A stretch of DNA of 64,000 nucleotides, from assembly GCA_003021235.1 (NCBI GenBank), contig PXQR01000018.1, positions 64,205 to 128,204 of the forward strand, in the 5' to 3' direction. Origin of the DNA: Halobacteriales archaeon QH_6_64_20 (GTDB lineage Archaea; Halobacteriota; Halobacteria; Halobacteriales; Halococcaceae). A program made the position numbers and the translations under genes. Each line of letters opens with the position of its first letter. Within the stretch, counting starts at the first letter, position 1. Of this stretch, positions 36,703-38,806 are shown piece after piece. The notes under the pieces are model-generated. The model saw only the letters and a list, made by a program, of their open reading frames with translations, searched no databases and was not told the origin of the DNA.

Positions 36703-36890
36703 ATCGCGGTTCCGATGGCTCATTGGAGGGCGAGGGAGCCACTGTGGGTAAGCGTTCCGCCGACGAGGGGATCCCCACCGGAACGCCGGGACGGTCGAGC
36801 GAATCACACCGGCCGCTCGTCGAGGAAACCACGTACGAGTGGTTATATAGGTCACAGGTTATATGCGCCACCGGTGTGTGCCGAGGTATC

Positions 36891-38156
36891 ATGGGTGAGC
36901 TGCAGTGGCGCGTGGGGGTGTGTGAACCGGACGCCCTCCCACCGGACTCGACCGTCGAACTGGTCCTCCAGTACACCAATCGCAACGACTACCCTCACCA
37001 CGTTCAATCGGCGTTCCTCGCACGGACGTGGGATTCGAGCCACGTATCGCACCATTCCGTCGATCGCGAGATCGCGCCGGGGGCAACCGAGCGCCTCGCG
37101 CCGATCAGACTGACCACCCCCCGGGGAATCGGCGGGAACCAAGGGGTTCGGATCGGCTTCGACGTGGGTGAGGCTACCGATCGGGAAACGACGGACTACG
37201 AGCGGAAGTGGGGGGAGGCTCCCCTACGGCTGGACGTGCCTGGGGCCGCCGAATACCGTCCCGTATACTGTGTGTCGGGGAGCGGGGACGATTCGGCGGT
37301 ACGACGGCTGGTTCACGACTGGGGGTTCGACGTCCGTGAAGTACACGACCCCGAGGGCGTCGTCGACGCGTTCGAAGCGACCGAAACGACGCCGATAGCC
37401 GTCTTCGGGGTAGTGCTCCCGAGCGGCGACGGAGCTTCGAGCCGGGGACTGGTGAGCAGCGCGGCGACGGCTGCACGCAATGAGAACAGAATACCGCTCG
37501 TGTTCAGACACGAGGGCATGGAGGACGCTGCCATGCCCGATCTGCCCGACCAATGTATCGTCATCGAATTCGACCCGGATGATGAACCACGTCTCGAGGA
37601 AGCCGCCGGACGTGTACTCCTCGGTATTCGACACCTGGAAGAGGCGGGTCGGACGAACCGATTCGTGGGGATCGTCTCGCAGTATATCGACGAATCGAGA
37701 GAAAAGGCGGCGAAGGCGTCTCGACGAGCGGGACAAGAGCTCAGGAACGCTCCGAAGCAGCTATTGTGGGCGTGGGTCGGACACGTCGTCCTTTCGGCAA
37801 CCGGCGCGGATGAGGCAACTGACGACCTGATCGAGGAATTCCAGGAGAGAACGAGCGAGGTAGTCGCGAGCGAGCGCCCGCCCGAGTCTCCGACGCGGGG
37901 TCAGGACCGGCAGCAGAAAGAGAAATCACACGCCGAACTGTCGTCCGAATCTACCGCGGCACTCGGCGGCTGGCCGCTGTTTCGGGCCGACGCCGCCAAC
38001 ACCGGCCACGCCCCCGACGAAACCGGACCGACCTGGATCGCCAGACAGCGGTGGCGCGTCGAGACTGGAAGTCCGGTGTACTCCTCGCCGGCGGTGGTCG
38101 ACGGCACCGTCTACGTCGGCAGCGACGATAACAACGTGTACGCGTTGACCGAGTGA
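36891..38156 (+). CDS. multidomain protein: N-terminal beta-sandwich-like region + TIR-like/Rossmannoid region + single PQQ-type propeller blade
   Basis: ATG after TATA-like TTATATA; GELQWRVGVCEPDALPPDSTVELVLQYTN...; YRPVYCVSGSGDDSAVRRLVHDWGFDVREV...PIAVFGVVLPSG...RIPLVFRHEG; GWPLFRADAANTGHAPDETGP...SSPAVVDGTVYVGSDDNNVYALTE*. Confidence 0.7.
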   Translation: MGELQWRVGVCEPDALPPDSTVELVLQYTNRNDYPHHVQSAFLARTWDSSHVSHHSVDREIAPGATERLAPIRLTTPRGIGGNQGVRIGFDVGEATDRETTDYERKWGEAPLRLDVPGAAEYRPVYCVSGSGDDSAVRRLVHDWGFDVREVHDPEGVVDAFEATETTPIAVFGVVLPSGDGASSRGLVSSAATAARNENRIPLVFRHEGMEDAAMPDLPDQCIVIEFDPDDEPRLEEAAGRVLLGIRHLEEAGRTNRFVGIVSQYIDESREKAAKASRRAGQELRNAPKQLLWAWVGHVVLSATGADEATDDLIEEFQERTSEVVASERPPESPTRGQDRQQKEKSHAELSSESTAALGGWPLFRADAANTGHAPDETGPTWIARQRWRVETGSPVYSSPAVVDGTVYVGSDDNNVYALTE

Positions 38157-38338: not shown

Positions 38339-38387
38339 GTACTCGGTGCCACGCCGGGCGCGCCGGCCGGCGTCGAGCAGGTTGGTT
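38339..38387 (-). pseudogene. relic of a cobO 3' end
   Basis: encodes LLDAGRRARRGTEY vs PIDAGQRARRGTEY* of cobO at 38807; differences mostly at third codon positions. Confidence 0.5.
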
Positions 38388-38806
38388 TCACTTCCAGACT
38401 CCGGTGACAGGGGGCCGATCGCCGCCACGAACGGTCGCCCGTTCGTGGGCGAGCAGTACGTCGCGGTCACGCTGACGAGGAAGGCGTGGTACGGCGGACC
38501 GATCCAACTGCCCGAGGAGGGGTCGTCGGAGGGAGAGGTCCGAGGGACGGTTCCGTCGTCCGTGAGGTGTCGTCTCGCCCGCACACGAGGACGTCACGGA
38601 CCCGTTCGAGCGCGTCGAGCGAGCGGCAGAGCGGGAGGGCGGTAGAGCGGTAATCGGCGAGGCCGTGACGGCGTCGATCGGTTACCGACGGCGAGCGAGC
38701 GTTGGCACCGACCGGGAAGGCCGGGTCGTCCGGTGCCGTCCCGTCGCCAGTTTCGCCGTCGCTCCGGATCGGGATCGGTCGGTGTCACTGACCGACGACT
38801 CGGGAG

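Follow-up and report, generated by a model that had tools for sequence, protein, structure and literature searches.

The ORF at 36891–38156 (+) encodes a 421-residue protein and is a genuine gene with a three-part anatomy, in which exactly one PQQ-type propeller blade ends a chain whose residues 1–324 have no detectable relatives; it is an orphan gene of one haloarchaeon, and it lies in an insertion between the cobalamin genes cobO and cbiP. We judge the chances to be about even that it is a young lineage-specific chimera, probably a cytosolic interaction protein, whose propeller has shrunk to one blade.

An orphan gene inserted between cobO and cbiP

The ORF opens with ATG at 36891 and closes with a stop codon at 38154–38156. 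By codon usage its frame scored best across the entire ORF to the stop; upstream the frame is open to 36594, with the codon-usage signal beginning only at ~36890 and all frames negative before 36891, and due to this we favoured ATG 36891 as the start. A TATA-like box, TTATATA, stands at 36843–36849 (+), ~42 bp 5' of the start codon, and is the sole occurrence of this string in the 64-kb window (the whole stretch of DNA that we analysed), where 0.17 would be expected. The first-pass annotation, made from the letters, was thus right to give the gene a TATA-like sequence of its own, and its description of a 421-residue protein of three unlike parts was borne out in coordinates, length and anatomy.

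Residues 1–324 had no relative among the 18 family genomes searched (whole-protein query, all candidates scored), no credible one among 400 class and 249 phylum genomes, and none in plasmids; the whole protein had no relative in phages, and peptide patterns taken from it recovered none from genome contigs. As scoring in the class scan was limited to the top 4–5 candidates of each genome, distant relatives may have been missed. The weak class-wide matches (E-values of 1e-3 to 1e-2, a few of them, on the minus strand, examined in part) were set aside, two being to response regulators and the others unsupportive.

The gene and cbiP are transcribed divergently, the gene and cobO convergently; the neighbours confirmed by Pfam are TFB, CbiP, CobO, CbiZ, an aminotransferase and an NTP transferase. 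It sits inside a 2.1-kb insertion that adjoins a decayed extra 3' end of cobO (38339–38420, −; two matches, none expected), a trace of rearrangement that is nearer to the cobO of congeners than to that of the genome itself. We fetched this region from nine relatives. In four of them, which belong to other genera of the family (L071, L073, L074 and L075), cobO and cbiP are immediate or near-immediate neighbours, and we therefore regard the gene as an insertion. A further genus of the family has genes for 216-residue and 149-residue membrane-like proteins between the two (L076:3303-4384), two relatives (L072 and L077) have no cbiP within the fetched stretch, and in two congeners (L069:4350-7300 and L070:4130-8730) the stretch from cobO to the TFB gene contains no cbiP, its place being taken by a ~500-residue membrane protein and other genes. 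These variable contents, together with the decayed cobO copy, indicate that the junction is insertion-prone and that the locus was made by rearrangement. The proposal that an accessory gene had been inserted here, running against the cobalamin cluster, therefore holds, most relatives having no intervening gene.

A single C-terminal PQQ blade

The C-terminal part of the protein (residues 358–421; 37962–38156, +) was identified by profile, PDB and class-wide matches as a single PQQ-type propeller blade with an N-cap (GWPLFRADAANTGHAPDETGP...SSPAVVDGTVYVGSDDNNVYALTE). The PQQ_2 match of the protein (E-value of 1.1e-3) was below the curated cut-off of that model; residues 385–419 matched PDB chains of both designed and natural PQQ propellers with E-values down to 3e-52, and a blade sequence of the PQQ propeller type (PF13360) is present. 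In addition, 329 of the 400 class genomes matched the protein at E-values of 1e-3 or less, and among the matches listed all fell on the C-terminal part. Residues 358–421 resemble the first blade of haloarchaeal PQQ propellers (39–67% identity in the best listed matches) and share with these PQQ-binding-like beta-propeller repeat proteins (PF13360, BamB-like) the first-blade cap WPxFRxDxANTG and the blade motif SSPAVVDGTVYVGS. Counted with the target's own blade as query, however, most comparable haloarchaeal proteins have eight blades and the target one, at its C-terminus, too few to close a ring in one chain. Furthermore, in haloarchaeal PQQ proteins the cap is commonly preceded by an N-terminal Tat or lipoprotein signal, whereas a reading of the N-terminus of the target revealed no apparent signal peptide, lipobox or other export signal; a cytosolic location is probable. 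The GC content at third codon positions was 0.86 in the blade versus 0.68–0.78 in residues 1–357.

The blade closes with VYALTE-stop, much as complete propellers of other proteins do; one blade thus combines a propeller cap with a propeller end. The region had been read from the letters as the start of a PQQ/WD-type propeller that halts after one blade; the count of exactly one PQQ blade was correct, but no propeller runs on in another frame. We rejected such a continuation because the blade has both a first-blade cap and a last-blade-like end, with nothing convincing downstream (no convincing propeller remnant in the 744 bases 3' of the stop).

Few-bladed PQQ proteins were also found in other genomes. 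One from Natrinema gelatinilyticum (L149, 2955-4090) has only two PQQ blades and, after them, a tail of repeated beta-domains, and as its replicon is a plasmid recorded as complete, the few-bladed state occurs outside draft contigs; another (L026) has three PQQ blades. A longer protein from another genome (L042) has a cap and tail similar to those of the Natrinema protein, and this pair may reflect natural blade loss or early amplification. In one PQQ protein frame of >1000 residues (L014) we counted 16 blades within the stretch fetched. Propellers whose blade number falls short of what is usual in their lineage are regarded as fragments, and natural oligomeric propellers are very rare (PMC9218822). 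Among the matches listed from a strict-pattern search of 400 genomes, no second lone-blade C-terminus was evident, and no ancestor with the same N-terminal domains and a full propeller was found, so that we infer rather than observe a loss of blades here.

The simplest reading of the lone blade is as a remnant of an eight-bladed propeller. In the chimera that we favour, the eight-bladed PQQ propeller would have been cut to one blade by in-frame recombination between its first and last blades, which would leave the one remaining blade joined to an arrestin/Spo0M-like sandwich, an alpha/beta domain of non-enzymatic, pseudo-receiver-like character and a helical linker, in a young gene that entered the cobO–cbiP junction. 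The protein, if active at all, would bind partners through its sandwich and alpha/beta domains, and the blade would be non-essential or a weak self-association surface. We favour this reading because the majority of the haloarchaeal PQQ proteins that we compared are eight-bladed and the target combines a single blade with both a cap and an end, because a few-bladed protein exists in a complete replicon, and because residues 1–324 have no relatives and the gene is an insertion.

Two other explanations of the blade were weighed against it. A lone blade that works as such, ~eight chains building one propeller with eight sandwich/alpha-beta heads around the ring as an assembly-triggered sensor or scaffold, is in our view unlikely. 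The blade is indeed intact and near consensus (the PDB E-values above), with cap and end in place, and few-bladed WD40 designs do form oligomeric propellers (PMC6805158); however, single-blade WD40 constructs from PkwA remained unfolded or partly folded monomers where several-blade constructs assembled (PMC6805158), the matches listed from the strict-pattern search revealed no second lone-blade C-terminus, and no relative shows the architecture to be conserved. Like the single- and few-blade oligomeric propellers (the WRAP, PkwA and Pizza constructs), the target is below the blade number of a closed ring and so would need to oligomerise, but those are engineered, whereas the target is a natural ORF and its oligomerisation only a prediction. 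That it is a natural single-blade protein which assembles by itself into a ring of ~eight blades, bearing eight sandwich/pseudo-receiver heads and acting in the haloarchaeon as a scaffold or sensor, we hold to be quite improbable. An assembly artefact, in which tandem near-identical blades were collapsed to one, appears rather improbable: the assembly is a draft of 152 contigs, errors are an acknowledged risk in highly repetitive propellers (PMC9218822) and the blade unites a first-blade cap with a last-blade-like end, but blades within one haloarchaeal propeller differ from each other here, making an easy collapse unlikely, the gene lies inside a 135-kb contig away from its end, and few-bladed PQQ proteins are present in a complete replicon.

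The putative N-terminal sandwich and middle alpha/beta domain

No meaningful family match to residues 1–357 was identified in Pfam, NCBIfam, PADLOC or PHROG. Residues 1–116 (36891–37238, +) are predicted to form a 7-strand beta-sandwich: the single-sequence AF2 model, poor overall, placed strands across residues 3–109 (pLDDT 45–70 over residues 20–80), and the best Foldseek matches of the low-confidence whole-protein model included Spo0M (E-value of 6e-5) and the N-lobes of VDUP-1 and ARRDC3. An arrestin/Spo0M-type sandwich is thus plausible, based on the modelled succession of strands and its matches to Spo0M and arrestin N-domains. The target differs from those proteins in having no Pfam sequence match and in its low model confidence, so the Ig/arrestin-type sandwich suggested earlier is weakly supported by the modelled strands and Foldseek matches and not by Pfam. 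Residues 258–357 (37662–37961, +) are a predicted linker, helical and then of low complexity, in which AF2 placed helices at residues 270–285 and 307–327 with low confidence.

Between these lies a putative alpha/beta (flavodoxin-like) domain (residues 117–257; 37239–37661, +), which we compared with locally built profiles, one of them made from ten haloarchaeal TIR_2 domains and others from sets of receivers. Our first receiver HMM scored 10.3 bits on the domain, a score reached by none of 1000 shuffles but inflated, as the receiver set included two sequences (L046 and L048) that had been found with the target. Due to this we rebuilt the set from PF00072 matches alone (34 receivers), and the independent HMM scored 6.9 bits, which again none of 1000 shuffles reached and which 7 of 2381 pieces of other ORFs (~0.3%) equalled. 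The similarity to PF00072 receivers and pseudo-receivers is weak and extends over beta2-alpha2-beta3 and the LPxxDG turn; the domain has no Pfam-level receiver match, falling below any Pfam threshold, and the hallmark residues are replaced. The phospho-Asp column holds Gly, the switch Thr is Arg and the Lys is Ile, while the acidic pair is Ser-Asp in the alignment, leaving one Asp as the only phosphotransfer residue kept. The AF2 model of the domain made with no alignment was poor (pLDDT 53); its Foldseek search gave no match at E-values of 0.001 or less and favoured no family, GTPase-like folds ranking highest.

The domain had originally been described as a TIR/Rossmannoid fold. It resembles TIR_2 (PF13676) proteins in alpha/beta order and in one short motif-like stretch; however, the HMM of ten haloarchaeal TIR_2 domains gave no score on it, a second TIR-like family profile gave nothing, and 13 of 150 shuffles did as well as the domain when aligned to TIR_2 by hhalign. 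The Glu column that is invariant in the ten haloarchaeal TIRs holds Gly in the target, the invariant Trp is absent from the alignment, and GASSRGLVSSAATAARN contains no acidic residue, the conserved NADase Glu, which in TIRs lies in the helix that follows the S..W motif, having no counterpart. We found no TIR match for the target in Pfam, NCBIfam or PADLOC, and PF10137, the CAP12 TIR, hardly occurs in the class. As the receiver score exceeded all shuffles and all phosphotransfer residues but one Asp are replaced, a dead receiver or pseudo-receiver is a better but unproven lead than a TIR domain, one for which these scores are suggestive only. For the chimera, we favour a pseudo-receiver part since the receiver signal is stronger than the TIR signal and Gly occupies the phospho-Asp position. 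Our searches also revealed a widespread haloarchaeal TIR_2-like family (L097-L111; ~200–350 residues, VFVSHAP...) in many genera, with a WVNQE motif and a Cys-containing C-terminal part.

These results bear on two readings of what the gene does. A TIR-type NAD-processing effector with a propeller sensor, acting in a conflict system, could draw on the strand order, on 'VSGSGDD', which is reminiscent of the first TIR motif, and on the occurrence of TIR_2 proteins in 79 of 250 haloarchaeal genomes; we nevertheless consider it highly improbable given the silent profiles, the hhalign shuffles and the replaced Glu and missing Trp, and as the source genome has no TIR_2 match. PADLOC found no defence match among the target and ten further window proteins, and the neighbours are cobalamin genes and TFB. 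With no TIR, no PADLOC match and no relatives in defence islands, the conflict-system effector or sensor proposed earlier has no positive support. A functional part in cobalamin metabolism or regulation, to which the position between cobO and cbiP and the divergence from cbiP might point, we regard as barely credible: the gene is on the opposite strand, it is missing at the junction in the nine fetched relatives and from the other 17 family genomes, and a B12-binding domain, considered because of the cobalamin context, was rejected as the sequence has no DxHxxG motif.

Implications

If the blade truly works, the protein would be a natural test of homo-oligomer assembly by single propeller blades, a question so far addressed with engineered constructs. 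The likelier alternative, a young orphan gene whose propeller has collapsed, would clearly illustrate both the loss of blades and the entry of a gene into the junction of a metabolic operon, and would warn against taking orphan alpha/beta domains for TIR effectors.
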